A stretch of 64,000 nt of DNA from Akkermansia muciniphila (GTDB taxonomy: Bacteria; Verrucomicrobiota; Verrucomicrobiia; Verrucomicrobiales; Akkermansiaceae). The position numbers and the translations under genes are program-made. The stretch lies in NCBI GenBank assembly GCA_945873305.1, contig CAMCCX010000001.1, positions 1-64,000 on the forward strand, given 5' to 3'. Below are positions 51,858-64,000 of this stretch, piece after piece. The notes beneath the pieces are model-generated. The model was not told the origin of the DNA. It made no database searches and saw only the letters and a program-made list of their open reading frames with translations. Every line of letters starts with the position of its first letter. Position 1 is the stretch's first letter.

Positions 51858-54077
51858 TCAGGAGAAATTCAGCGCGTCCATGTCGAAGACGACGGTGACG
51901 TCTTCGGGCAGCGGGGTTTTCGCTAGAATCTGTTGGACGTGGCGGGTGAGCGGGCGGGCGCGGTGGGAGCGCAGGGTGATTTGGAAACGGAACTGGCCGT
52001 GCGAGCGGATGAGCGGCGAGGGCAGCACTTCGCCGAGGGTGATGCCGGCGGGGAGGTTTTCCGCGAGGCGGAGGTGGAGGGTTTGCAGGGTGAACTCGGC
52101 GCGGCGCTCGTGGGTGGAGCGGCTTGTTAGCACGGCGCAGTGGGCGTAGGGCGGGAACGAGAACTCGCGGCGGAACTCCATTTCCTGCTCGGAGAAGCCG
52201 TCGAAGTCGTGCTTGCGCGCATACTGGATGGATGGCGAGTGCGGGGTGAAGGTTTGCACGATGACTTCGCCTGCTAGATCGCCGCGGCCGGCGCGGCCGG
52301 CGACCTGGGTGATGAGCTGGAAGGTGCGCTCGCCGGCGCGGAAGTCCGGCACGTGCAGGCCGAGGTCGGCGTTGAGGATGCCGACGAGGGTGACGTTGGG
52401 GAAATGCAGGCCCTTGGCGATCATCTGCGTTCCTATCAGGATGTCGATCTTGTGGGCCTTGAAGGCGGCGAGCGTGTCGCGCAGGGCGTTTTTCCGGCGC
52501 ATGGCATCGGCGTCGATGCGGGCGAACTTGGCCTTCGGAAAAACCTTGGTGAGCACTTCCTCGACCTTTTGCGTGCCGTAGCCTTGGAGGAGAATGTTAG
52601 GATCGCGGCACTCGGGGCACTTGCGCGGGACGATGGATTGGTAGCCGCAAACGTGGCAGACGAGCCGCTCGTCGGTGCGGTGATAGGTGAGGGCGACGGC
52701 GCAGTGCGGACACTGGCAGACGTGGCCGCAGGCGGTGCATTGGAGCGATCTGGCAAACCCGCGCCGGTTGAGGAAGAGGATGGATTGCTCGCCCTTTTCG
52801 AGCCGCTGCTCAAGCGCGGCGCGGAGCTTGTCGGATAGAATGGCGGGGCTGCCCTTGTGCTTGGTTTGCTCCAGGCGCATGTCCACCACGCGGACGAGCG
52901 GCATGGAGGCGCCGTCGGCGCGCTCGTTGAGGCGGAGCAGGTCGTATTTGTCGGTTAGCGTGTTGTTCCAGGATTCGAGCGACGGCGTGGCGGAGCCTAA
53001 CACGATGGCGCACGGCTCGAAGGCGGCACGCAGCACGGCGACGTCGCGGCCGTGGTAGCGCGGGACGTTTTCCTGCTTGTAGGTGTTTTCGTGCTCCTCA
53101 TCCACGAGGATCAGCCCGAGGTCCGGCAGCGGCGCGAAGACGGCGGATCGCGCGCCGATGACGATGCGCGCGGCGCCCTTGCGGATGCGGTGCCACTCGT
53201 CGAAGCGCTCGCCCTGGGAGAGATTCGAGTGGAGCACGGCGACCTGGTCCTGCATGCCGGCGAAGCGGGATTTGAAGCGGCGGACGGTCTGGGGCGTCAG
53301 GGAGATTTCCGGGACGAGGACGAGCACGGTTTTCCCGAGGTCGAGCGCGCGTTGGGCGGCTTGCAGATAAACCTCGGTTTTGCCGGAGCCGGTCACGCCT
53401 AGCAGGAGAATGGGTTTCGCGGTGGTGGGATTCGCGACGGCGGCGAGCACGACATCGAGCGCGGCGGACTGGCCGGGGTTGAGTTCGAGCGGCTTGGATT
53501 CGAGGATTTCCTCGACGTTGTCGGCGTCCGGATCGCGGCGGACTTCCTCGGCGACGAGGCGGAGTAAACCCGCCTTCTCCATGGACTTGAGCGCGGCGGC
53601 ATTGCCATCGCCGAGGTCGGCGACTGGCAGGCGCATTTCCGGGGCGTGGCTGAGAAGGGAGAGGATGGTGAACTGCCGCGGCGCGCGCTTTTCCAATTTC
53701 GTGAGCACGGCCGGCTCAGGCTTGGCGTCTAGCACGGCGACGCGGCGGGTTTTCGCGGAATTTTCCTCCGAGCGCACGCCCTCGGGCAGCACCGAGCGGA
53801 TCACCGACTCGATGCTGGAGCCATAGTAATGGGCGATCCAGTCGGCGGTCCGCAGCAGGACCGGCGTGATCAGCGGCTCGGGGTCGATGAGGGATTCCAA
53901 CTCTCGCAGGGCGAAATCCGCCTGCTCGGACTCGCCCGTGGAAAGCACGGTGCCGGTGGCGGATTTCCGCCGCAGCGGGATGCGGACGCGGCAGCCGGGA
54001 CGCACGTGGAGCCCTGCCGGGATGGCATAGTCGAAGACGAGCTCCGAAGGTCCGTCGATCAGCACGCGGGCGTTCAC
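51858..54077 (-). CDS. priA: Primosomal protein N' (replication restart helicase)
   Basis: LLGVTGSGKTEVYLQAAQ, VDEEHENTYKQENVPRYHGRDVAV, zinc Cys pairs CTACGHVCQCPHC / CHVCGYQSIVPRKCPEC. Confidence 0.96.
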   Translation of the reverse strand: MNARVLIDGPSELVFDYAIPAGLHVRPGCRVRIPLRRKSATGTVLSTGESEQADFALRELESLIDPEPLITPVLLRTADWIAHYYGSSIESVIRSVLPEGVRSEENSAKTRRVAVLDAKPEPAVLTKLEKRAPRQFTILSLLSHAPEMRLPVADLGDGNAAALKSMEKAGLLRLVAEEVRRDPDADNVEEILESKPLELNPGQSAALDVVLAAVANPTTAKPILLLGVTGSGKTEVYLQAAQRALDLGKTVLVLVPEISLTPQTVRRFKSRFAGMQDQVAVLHSNLSQGERFDEWHRIRKGAARIVIGARSAVFAPLPDLGLILVDEEHENTYKQENVPRYHGRDVAVLRAAFEPCAIVLGSATPSLESWNNTLTDKYDLLRLNERADGASMPLVRVVDMRLEQTKHKGSPAILSDKLRAALEQRLEKGEQSILFLNRRGFARSLQCTACGHVCQCPHCAVALTYHRTDERLVCHVCGYQSIVPRKCPECRDPNILLQGYGTQKVEEVLTKVFPKAKFARIDADAMRRKNALRDTLAAFKAHKIDILIGTQMIAKGLHFPNVTLVGILNADLGLHVPDFRAGERTFQLITQVAGRAGRGDLAGEVIVQTFTPHSPSIQYARKHDFDGFSEQEMEFRREFSFPPYAHCAVLTSRSTHERRAEFTLQTLHLRLAENLPAGITLGEVLPSPLIRSHGQFRFQITLRSHRARPLTRHVQQILAKTPLPEDVTVVFDMDALNFS

Positions 54078-54133: not shown

Positions 54134-54155
54134 AAAGTGTTCCAATGAACACTTT
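54134..54155. promoter_or_regulatory. Perfect palindrome AAAGTGTTC-CAAT-GAACACTTT, candidate LexA box
   Basis: Contains TGTTC-N4-GAACA between divergent priA and the Whirly-like gene. Confidence 0.7.
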
Positions 54156-54214
54156 TTAATTGCGCCATGATTCCGAACCTGCCATTTTGCAAAAGTATCC
54201 AACCAAACAACGCC

Positions 54215-54682
54215 ATGAATGACACCGTCCTAGAATCCTCCCCGTCCGCCACGGAACGCTCTTCCGAATACGCGATCTACAAGCCGAATTCCCGAGGCAG
54301 CGGCGGCGTGGTTCGTTTCGGTCTCAATCCCGCCAAGGGGGCCGTTTTTGTCGATGCCGCCGCGCAGTCCGGTGAAAAGCAGTTCGACTGGGAAAATAAA
54401 ATCATCATGAAGTGGGGGCTGTCTGATCTGGGGGCCGTGCTCGCCGCATTGCAAGGCCGACAGGCTCAGGCGAAGCTTTTCCATCAGTCCGAGAAGGCGA
54501 ACAGCGCGTTCGAGCTGAACTATCAGGATGATCCGGAGCGCGCGCCCTATCTCCTGAGTATTTCCCGCCAGACCACGGAGGATAAATCACTGCGCAAGGT
54601 GACCATCCCGCTCAGCCATGGCGAGGCGGCGGTCTTGGAAACCGCGTTGCGCGCCGCGATCACCCGACTTCTGGCCTGGTGA
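54215..54682 (+). CDS. Whirly-like ssDNA-binding protein
   Basis: GEKQFDWENKIIMKWGLSDLGAVLAAL...KLFHQSE...LRKVTIPLSHGEAAVLETALRAAITRLLAW parallels plant Whirly YDWEKRQKFALSPTEVGSL...FFHDPS...[25 protein letters not shown]. Confidence 0.7.
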   Translation: MNDTVLESSPSATERSSEYAIYKPNSRGSGGVVRFGLNPAKGAVFVDAAAQSGEKQFDWENKIIMKWGLSDLGAVLAALQGRQAQAKLFHQSEKANSAFELNYQDDPERAPYLLSISRQTTEDKSLRKVTIPLSHGEAAVLETALRAAITRLLAW

Positions 54683-54685
54683 ACA

Positions 54686-56479
54686 TCACTGTTGAGTTCT
54701 CCCCGCTTCACGGATTTTACGCGTGGGGGATTCGTCCGTGGGGGGTTCGGGATCGCCGATTGCAACGGCCAGCTCCGCGGCCACTTCCTCGTGGACGCGG
54801 ATCATTGCCGAGTAGGCGGCAAAGCTCTCGGGATTGTTGAAGTTGAATTGATCGCGAGCCCTGAGAGCACGCTCCAGAGGGCGGAGGGTGGCGACCATTT
54901 CCTGAACCCGGACCAGCAGTTCGCGGTCGCCTTTTTCCGCATAGCGAAAAAGCCGGTTCACCTCGCTTCGGCAGGATTCATGGGTGGGTCCGAGTTGGTT
55001 CACCTCGGATGGTTCGAAGCGGTTGTCTTCATCTTTCACGATCCAGTCGATGGGCTCGGTGGCACGGCGGAGCTCGAAGGCGAGCACGTCGCGGCGGACG
55101 AATGCGGGTCGATTTCCAGCGCCTTGGAGCGCGAGCATTTTGGCCGAGTAGTGATAGGCTGCGTCTTGGGTGATTTCCGCAAGGCGGCGGCGGACGAAGC
55201 TGTTAGCGAGGTATTGGCCGGTTGCTTGGGGGGCGGCTTTTTCGCGGATTTCCCGGAACTGTGCGGAGGCCTTTTCCACGGTCCCTTGGGGGATTTTTGC
55301 CGAAAAATCGAGGAGTTCTTGGAAGTTCGCGGCCAGAAGGATTTCGTAATCGAAAAAGAATCCCGGCTTTTCCAAAGCCAGCATCGAGGGCAGGTAAGTG
55401 GCGGCGGCGGAAGGGAGGACCAAGCGCCCCCCTTGACCCTGACCTAACGACTGGAGTTGCTCCCAGAATCCGGTTGGCAGCGTGAAGGCGCCGGTTTCAT
55501 CGATCAGGCCGATGATCGTGGCGGCCGGCTCGCGGCCGGAAATCGCGGAGCTCGCGAGAACGGCGGCGGCGGCGCTGATCGCCAAGCGTTTGTTAGGCGG
55601 CGGCGACGCCAAGGCATCGCTGGTGATGATGACACGGCCGCCCGCAGGCAGGCTTCCGTGTTGTTTTTTAAGGACTTTAAGAAGCGCGACACTCAGTAGC
55701 CCGAGCCGGCGCTCGTGATCCGTGGAGCCGACAATGATTGAAAAGGGTTGCTCTACACCTCCTTCCGCGGGGACCATTTCAGCGGACATCTGGAGTGGTG
55801 CGGGGCTGAGAATCCATTTTGCGGACTCGATCTTGCCGACTTTTTTCCAAAGCGGTGCGAATACCACGGCTTCGGAAAGCAGGATGCCGGGCTTGGCGAT
55901 GGAAGGTTCTTCGGGTGGTGTGGATTTGACCTCGACCACAGGCTCGTAGGCGGCGATTTCAGGGATCCATCCCTTCCATGCGCCGTGTTCTTCGGCGGCG
56001 CCCAAGCCTTCCGTCCGCGGATTTTCGGGATCCGAAATAAGCATGACGTCCATCAGGCAGGCGGCAAGCGCTTGGCCATGGGTCCCGGCCGCCGGCGTCT
56101 CCAACCACGTTAGACAATGCCGGACCCGCTCCCGGCATTTCGCCACTTCCGCCGGATCGGCGGCTGTTGGATCATGACCTTTTTGGAATCTGTCGATAAG
56201 CTCCCGCGTATTGCTGTTAGCCGGATCGAGCGCGGCCGAGAGCGCGAGCATCTGAGCCGCGGCCCGGCGGTTTGCGGCCGTTTGGAAATCCAGTCCCTCC
56301 GCGAGTGTCGCGAGCTGCCGGGACAGGCCCGCCATCGCCTCGGCATCCAGCGGGACCCGGTCGCGCCGGAACGCCACAGGTCCTTCGGCAGGCGGCGCGA
56401 AATTTTCCGCCCAAAGGCAGGTCGCTGCGGCCAGCAACAATCCCGCGACTCGCAACAGATGGAATTTTCCCGGATGCAT
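54686..56479 (-). CDS. Protein with Lon (S16)-like C-terminal domain
   Basis: VIITSDALASPPPNKRLAISAAAAVLASSAISGREPAATIIGLIDETGAFTLPTGFWEQLQSL, Lon-proteolytic-domain-like layout. Confidence 0.5.
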   Translation of the reverse strand: MHPGKFHLLRVAGLLLAAATCLWAENFAPPAEGPVAFRRDRVPLDAEAMAGLSRQLATLAEGLDFQTAANRRAAAQMLALSAALDPANSNTRELIDRFQKGHDPTAADPAEVAKCRERVRHCLTWLETPAAGTHGQALAACLMDVMLISDPENPRTEGLGAAEEHGAWKGWIPEIAAYEPVVEVKSTPPEEPSIAKPGILLSEAVVFAPLWKKVGKIESAKWILSPAPLQMSAEMVPAEGGVEQPFSIIVGSTDHERRLGLLSVALLKVLKKQHGSLPAGGRVIITSDALASPPPNKRLAISAAAAVLASSAISGREPAATIIGLIDETGAFTLPTGFWEQLQSLGQGQGGRLVLPSAAATYLPSMLALEKPGFFFDYEILLAANFQELLDFSAKIPQGTVEKASAQFREIREKAAPQATGQYLANSFVRRRLAEITQDAAYHYSAKMLALQGAGNRPAFVRRDVLAFELRRATEPIDWIVKDEDNRFEPSEVNQLGPTHESCRSEVNRLFRYAEKGDRELLVRVQEMVATLRPLERALRARDQFNFNNPESFAAYSAMIRVHEEVAAELAVAIGDPEPPTDESPTRKIREAGRTQQ

Positions 56480-61936: not shown

Positions 61937-64000
61937 ATGAACATCCATACACTTACGGCCGACGTCGGCACCAACCCGATGACGTTCGAAACCGGCAAAA
62001 TTGCCAAACTCGCCGATGGCGCCGTCACCGTCCGCTGCGGCGACACCATCATCCTCGTCACCGCCGTTTCCTCCACGAAAGTGAAGCCCGGCCAGACTTG
62101 GTTCCCACTTTCCGTGGAATATAAGGAAAAAGCCACCGCTGCCGGCGTCTTCCCAGGCGGCTACTTCAAACGCGAAGGCCGCCCGACCGAAAAGGAAATC
62201 CTCACCTGCCGCATGACGGACCGCCCACTGCGTCCGCTGTTCCCGAAAGGTTACCTCTACGAAACCCAGATCGTCGCCATCCTCCTCAGCGCCGATGGCG
62301 TGAATGACTCCGACATCCTCGCGATGAACGGCGCGTCCGCCGCCCTCTGCCTTTCCGACATCCCGTTCGCCGGCCCGATCGGTGCGGTGCGCGTCGGCCG
62401 TGTGAACGGACAATTCCTCATCAACCCGACCCACGACGAGCGCGCTGACAGCGACCTTGACCTGATCTACGTCGGCGACAAGACCAACGTCATCATGATC
62501 GAAGGCCAAGCCGACGAAATCCCGGAAGACGAATTCATCAAGGCTCTCCATTTCGCCCAAGAAGCCGTCGCCAAACTGGTGGCAGCCCAGGAAGAACTGG
62601 TGAAACTCGCCGGCAAGGAAAAGCGTTCCTACGAACTCACCCTCGCCAAGGAAAACCTCCTCGAAATCGCCTACGAAATCGCCGGCGACCGCATCGAGTC
62701 CGCAATCTACGCGCCTTCGAAAACCGAGCGCGCCAAGAAAGTCGGCGCTCTCCGCGACGAAGTGGAAGCCGCCATCAAGTCGCGCGCTCCCGAGGCCACC
62801 GACTTCGACGTCGAGCAAGCCTTCGAATACCTCCAAAAGAAGGCATTCCGCATCTCCATCATGGAAAAAGGCGTTCGCGCCGACGGCCGCAGCATCGGTG
62901 ACCTCCGCACTCTCTATGGAGAAGTCGGCACCCTTCCACGCGTTCACGGTTCCGCCATTTTCTCCCGCGGAGAAACCCAGGCGCTCGCCATCACCACCCT
63001 CGCCCCAGCTGACGAAAAGCAACATTTCGACAACTACGCCGGTGGCGAAGATGAGAAGCGCTTCATCCTCCACTACAACTTCCCTCCATTCTCCGTCGGC
63101 GAATGCGGACGCATGGGTGGCATCAACCGCCGCGAAATCGGCCACGGTTCGCTCGCCGAGCGCTCCATCGAGCCCGTCATCCCTGACGAATCCGTCTTCC
63201 CCTACGCCATCCGCGTTTCCTCGGAAGTCATGGAATCCAACGGTTCCACCTCGATGGCCTCCGTTTGCGCAGGCACCATGGCTCTCCTCGACGCCGGTGT
63301 CCCGCTCATCCGCCCGGTCGGTGGTATCTCCGTCGGTCTCGTCACCGAGAACAACGAAGACGGCTCCATGAAATCCCACAAAATGCTGTTGGACATCATC
63401 GGCTCCGAAGACTTCTACGGCGACATGGACTTCAAGCTCTGCGGCACCAGCGAAGGTGTCACCGGCTATCAGCTCGACCTCAAGCTCGCCGGCCTCCCGC
63501 TCGCCATGCTTGAAGAAGCGATCCACATCGCCAAGGCCGGCCGCACCAAGATCATCGAAAAGATGGCCGAGTCGATCATCGAGCCGAAGCCGCTCAGCCC
63601 GCACGCCCCGCGCATCGTTTCCGTCAAAATCCCGGCAGACCGCATCGGCGAGCTCATTGGGCCAGGCGGCAAGAACATCAAGGGCATCCAGGCCGAGTCC
63701 GGCGCCGAGATCAACATCGAGGACGACGGCACCGTGCACATCTACGCTTCCAAGCAGGAAGGCCTCGATCGCGCCAAGGCGATGATCGACCGCATGTTCC
63801 AAGAAATCGAAGTGGGCAAGGTTTACACCGGCAAGGTCGTTTCCATCACCCAGTTCGGCGCCTTCATGGAAGTGCTCCCCGGCAAGGACGGACTCGTCCA
63901 CGTCTCCGAACTCGCCGAAGGACGCACCGAAAACGTTGAAGACATCGTCAAAAAAGGCGACGTCATCACCGCCAAGTGCCTCGGAGTCGACGAAAAAGGC
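61937..64000 (+). CDS. pnp: Polynucleotide phosphorylase, truncated at the window edge
   Basis: My translation of the + strand from atg 61937 is open to the end: AGVFPGGYFKREGRPTEKEILTCRMTDRPLRPLFPKGYL...IGPGGKNIKGIQAESGAEINIEDDG (KH), S1 domain start; absent from the ORF track because no stop is reached. Confidence 0.95.
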   Translation, partial: MNIHTLTADVGTNPMTFETGKIAKLADGAVTVRCGDTIILVTAVSSTKVKPGQTWFPLSVEYKEKATAAGVFPGGYFKREGRPTEKEILTCRMTDRPLRPLFPKGYLYETQIVAILLSADGVNDSDILAMNGASAALCLSDIPFAGPIGAVRVGRVNGQFLINPTHDERADSDLDLIYVGDKTNVIMIEGQADEIPEDEFIKALHFAQEAVAKLVAAQEELVKLAGKEKRSYELTLAKENLLEIAYEIAGDRIESAIYAPSKTERAKKVGALRDEVEAAIKSRAPEATDFDVEQAFEYLQKKAFRISIMEKGVRADGRSIGDLRTLYGEVGTLPRVHGSAIFSRGETQALAITTLAPADEKQHFDNYAGGEDEKRFILHYNFPPFSVGECGRMGGINRREIGHGSLAERSIEPVIPDESVFPYAIRVSSEVMESNGSTSMASVCAGTMALLDAGVPLIRPVGGISVGLVTENNEDGSMKSHKMLLDIIGSEDFYGDMDFKLCGTSEGVTGYQLDLKLAGLPLAMLEEAIHIAKAGRTKIIEKMAESIIEPKPLSPHAPRIVSVKIPADRIGELIGPGGKNIKGIQAESGAEINIEDDGTVHIYASKQEGLDRAKAMIDRMFQEIEVGKVYTGKVVSITQFGAFMEVLPGKDGLVHVSELAEGRTENVEDIVKKGDVITAKCLGVDEKG

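Follow-up and report, generated by a model that had tools for sequence, protein, structure and literature searches.

A predicted LexA operator upstream of a Whirly-family gene in Akkermansia muciniphila

Here we describe a palindrome in the genome of Akkermansia muciniphila that we predict, with strong confidence drawn from comparison of upstream regions across relatives, to be the LexA operator of a gene encoding a Whirly-family protein. The palindrome was found in a window of 64,000 nucleotides, the whole stretch of DNA analysed, where it is placed between the divergent priA (minus strand) and Whirly-family (plus strand) genes. Compared to the canonical SOS regulon (lexA, recA, imuA-imuB-dnaE2), this genome carries the same operator at three classical members, while the Whirly-fold protein appears as an added candidate member.

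We give equal weight to the case for and against the Akkermansiaceae Whirly-family putative single-strand DNA-binding protein being a dedicated SOS effector. If true, the protection of genomes that Whirly proteins provide in plant organelles would also exist in bacteria, wired to the damage alarm and open to genetic dissection. In the searchable literature we found neither a role attributed to the bacterial homologues of Whirly nor a paper linking Whirly with the bacterial SOS response, although the 2016 Verrucomicrobia LexA gene list lay outside that search and priority is unproven. Conserved predicted LexA control would thus offer a first testable role for a bacterial Whirly protein, that of a damage-induced single-strand binding protein. 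It would add a family of plant organelle guardians to the SOS response and provide a bacterial model for steering repair away from microhomology joining.

The palindrome as the LexA-type operator of the genome

The extended LexA-type palindrome, AAAGTGTTC-CAAT-GAACACTTT (in full AAAGTGTTCCAATGAACACTTT), spans 22 bp at 54134..54155, is assigned to neither strand and consists of two perfect 9-bp arms around a 4-nt spacer. It contains the core operator TGTTC-N4-GAACA at 54138..54151, likewise unstranded, exactly as an earlier note on this DNA had described. The distances given in that note, about 57 nt to priA and about 60 nt to the Whirly-like gene, are right to within about a base: 56 nt lie between the palindrome and the GTG that starts priA at 54077 on the minus strand, and 59 nt between the palindrome and the Whirly ATG at 54215. 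On its own, this local picture is a weak statistic because about one near-match is expected in a 64-kb window (mean 1.44 sites for the core at one mismatch or fewer, given the window content). What makes the palindrome significant is instead which genes the four exact genomic sites precede, together with its conservation in relatives.

The genome searched comprises 3.06 Mb in 171 contigs and is 95% complete. Exact matches to TGTTC-N4-GAACA number four across the whole genome compared to one for the reversed-pattern control, and the four precede lexA, recA, the imuA-imuB-dnaE2 operon and the Whirly gene. At one mismatch or fewer the excess over the control nearly disappears (26 sites versus 20), thus the signal is carried by the exact sites. 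The genes behind the other three cores were identified by profile matches: lexA by TIGR00498 (156.7 bits), recA by TIGR02012 (501.9 bits) and an imuA-like open reading frame by a weak match to NF033429 (E 0.0054). Downstream of this last frame are a Y-family-polymerase-like open reading frame and an error-prone polymerase (NF004225, 1142 bits); judged by sequence, the three together are the imuA-imuB-dnaE2 operon.

Relatives tell the same story. An exact core stands directly upstream of lexA in 26 of 30 relatives' lexA genes, which fits the expectation for an autoregulated LexA operator, and the exact core usually outnumbers its reversed control across 99 relatives. With a scoring matrix built from the lexA boxes of 24 relatives, the palindrome scores 20.7 bits, compared to 26.5 for the genome's own lexA box, 11.8 for imuA and 7.1 for recA. 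The next best site of the window, at 62620 (AAAGCGTTCCTACGAACTCACC, 9.5 bits), was rejected as it has two core mismatches and lies inside a pnp-like reading frame.

Erill et al. 2016 (Front Mol Biosci 3:33) reportedly describe TGTTC-N4-GAACA as the LexA-binding motif of Verrucomicrobia. The presence of the same core before lexA, recA and imuA-imuB-dnaE2 identifies the palindrome as a LexA-type operator of this genome's own kind, and it is very probably a LexA-binding site, as predicted from sequence. The existence of more than one LexA-like protein in several relatives leaves a slight chance that the box is bound by some other S24-type or helix-turn-helix regulator sharing the LexA motif, but only one lexA match is present in this genome, and its own promoter bears the same core. 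The earlier note had read the palindrome as a candidate LexA box, had pointed to lexA, recA and dnaE2-type genes as the places to look for the motif, and had named a differing lexA operator as the observation that would speak against it. Its reading is supported: the exact core is found at recA, at imuA-imuB-dnaE2 and at lexA, whose operator in this genome thus does not differ.

Assignment of the box to Whirly rather than priA

Of 87 distinct relatives (duplicates removed), 47 have the exact core upstream of Whirly, a count of sequences that share ancestry and therefore exceed the number of evolutionary events, as do the other counts of relatives given here. Each of the 19 other permutations of the half-sites occurs in at most one of the 87 Whirly upstream regions, and spacers of 0-3 and 5-12 occur in none of them, so that the core is conserved only with its 4-nt spacer. 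The roughly one such site expected in the window at one mismatch or fewer might suggest a palindrome that arose by chance, or else a terminator or RNA hairpin with no regulatory role; 47 of 87 loci have the core at this position, while no control exceeds one, and that reading is left with a negligible probability. A terminator or hairpin was rejected given the lack of any terminator-like pattern at the box, which moreover sits between two divergent starts, and by the outer pairs, which are not kept in relatives. There the outer palindrome bases are often unpaired while the core letters stay fixed, a pattern that fits DNA recognised by a protein better than a hairpin in RNA.

The divergent neighbour of the box is priA, the replication restart helicase gene (51858..54077, minus strand; TIGR00595 at 642.6 bits, cut-off 230.35). 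With just 56 nt from box to priA start, and with the box kept at all 16 divergent priA-Whirly pairs, a single operator could serve both genes and priA could also be SOS-regulated here. We consider this unlikely on three grounds. First, the spacing to Whirly is tight (60-75 nt from box end to start, SD 2.8, in 41 of the 42 loci whose box is well upstream), whereas the distance to priA varies widely (52-113 nt, SD 21.4). Second, only 16 of 89 Whirly loci have a divergent priA next to them, and a further 29 Whirly loci, each with 1 kb or more of sequence upstream, are boxed without an adjacent priA. Third, among 22 relatives in which priA is unlinked to Whirly (eleven without a Whirly match, eleven with Whirly elsewhere), none has the box at priA even at two mismatches, the best site within 400 nt upstream having at least three.

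Taken together, the tight Whirly spacing, the boxed loci without priA and the box-free unlinked priA genes assign the box to Whirly. The gene priA is probably a bystander beside the Whirly operator, to judge from these comparisons, with a passive effect through proximity being possible. The proposal of the earlier note that one or both genes belong to the SOS regulon is thus supported for Whirly, before which the operator is kept, but not for priA (0 of 22 when unlinked). Its description of the box as common to both genes gives way to an operator at fixed spacing from Whirly that persists at Whirly loci without priA.

The Whirly-family protein and its occurrence

The Whirly-family gene occupies 54215..54682 on the plus strand and encodes 155 aa. 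Its start was picked by comparison: an in-frame ATG also exists at 54167, and relatives favour 54215. The protein matches PF08536 with E 2.6e-9 and 37.5 bits, above the Pfam curated cut-off of 23, and a profile of 20 relatives matches the plant StWhy2, WHY1, WHY2, WHY3 and p24 chains (E 1.9e-9 to 1.4e-6). An AlphaFold2 model has a mean pLDDT of 88.4, and a Foldseek search with this predicted fold places plant Whirly nearest (best E 3.4e-8, TM about 0.7). Among solved structures, plant Whirlies take the first 11 places, followed by the trypanosome MRP1/MRP2. By profile and by predicted fold, the protein is a Whirly homologue.

The likeness to plant Whirlies (WHY1, WHY2, WHY3, StWhy2; PF08536) thus extends to profile matches and predicted fold, while identity on structural alignments is about 17-19% and the host is a bacterium. 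Plant Whirlies carry a KGKAAL motif in their first strand, whereas the bacterial first strand reads IYKPNxRG in the rows of relatives; sequence profiles leave this strand unaligned. We know of no plant counterpart to LexA control of Whirly. Plant Whirlies bind single-strand DNA non-specifically and suppress microhomology-mediated recombination in plastids (PMC6447228). By analogy, the bacterial protein may bind single-strand DNA, and the prospect that it acts in repair we regard as evenly balanced.

Convergent with Whirly, on the minus strand at 54686-56479, lies a frame of 597 aa with no Pfam match above cut-off.

Whirly relatives are present in 56 of 99 related genomes, and within the family the gene occurs in 66 of 260 genomes. 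The 80 named loci are mostly recorded as Akkermansiaceae, Verrucomicrobiaceae, Luteolibacter and Prosthecobacter, species names being the titles of metagenome-assembled genomes and some of them looking doubtful. No Whirly match was found in the sampled compact, near-complete genomes of genus g21. Partial extra Whirly matches or split copies at L061 and L062 (G006, G004) and in G058 are possibly broken paralogues or contig ends. A phage origin of the gene was considered and rejected, with no PHROGs match and no relatives in viral contigs.

A tree of 86 Whirly proteins, built on few columns and with many forks open, clusters the boxed rows and contains two well-supported clades without the box (19 rows and 5 rows). 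The box is also carried by sister genera of the family (L095, L098). In the order of the box-less clades, genomes still have more exact cores than reversed controls. The two clades without the box indicate that SOS control is not universal for the Whirly family. Many other families of the phylum have distant Whirly-like genes, and none of seven LexA-like patterns was found upstream of these. Among the distant proteins, L231-L254 share a YHPNxxGxG-like start motif. One box-less clade (L126, L119, L114, L137) has in common an upstream stretch around TGTGTCGGATTC, perhaps another regulatory site.

Promoter context and a model of control

Immediately past the box, TTGCGC at 54160..54165 (plus strand) is the putative -35 element of the Whirly promoter. 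Of 42 boxed relatives, 41 have a TTGC or TTGA that starts 4-9 nt past the end of the box, and this conserved element is probably a -35, as its position and conservation suggest. For a sigma-70-type promoter, no -10 element above shuffles was found near the Whirly box. In most species the box does not overlap the presumed -35 but lies upstream of it, an arrangement that would suit LexA acting as an activator or anti-activator, with Whirly expression lower or flat after damage. We regard such control as very unlikely. In a supported clade of nine (L157, L164, L171, L172, L179 and relatives), the box lies 4 nt before the Whirly start codon (five exact, four with one mismatch) and downstream of a TTCTTG element, a position suited to repression. 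Furthermore, the partner genes lexA, recA and imuA-imuB-dnaE2 are classical repressed SOS genes. The class of these partners, together with the position of the box in this clade, leads us to infer that the direction of control is repression. In the clade of nine, the operator appears to have shifted relative to the presumed promoter with control kept.

Under repression, the following model can be drawn. In the undamaged cell, a LexA dimer would occupy the box, at one edge of the Whirly promoter, and keep the gene repressed. Upon damage, RecA on single-stranded DNA would trigger the self-cleavage of LexA, and the Whirly gene would be switched on along with lexA, recA and imuA-imuB-dnaE2. Its product, probably as an oligomer, would then cover and protect exposed single-stranded DNA, and its coating may discourage error-prone microhomology joining, as plant Whirlies do in organelles.

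At five loci (L101, L102, L103, L111, L038), a degenerate second box (TGTTCNNNNGAAAA) stands in tandem, 14 nt before the exact box.
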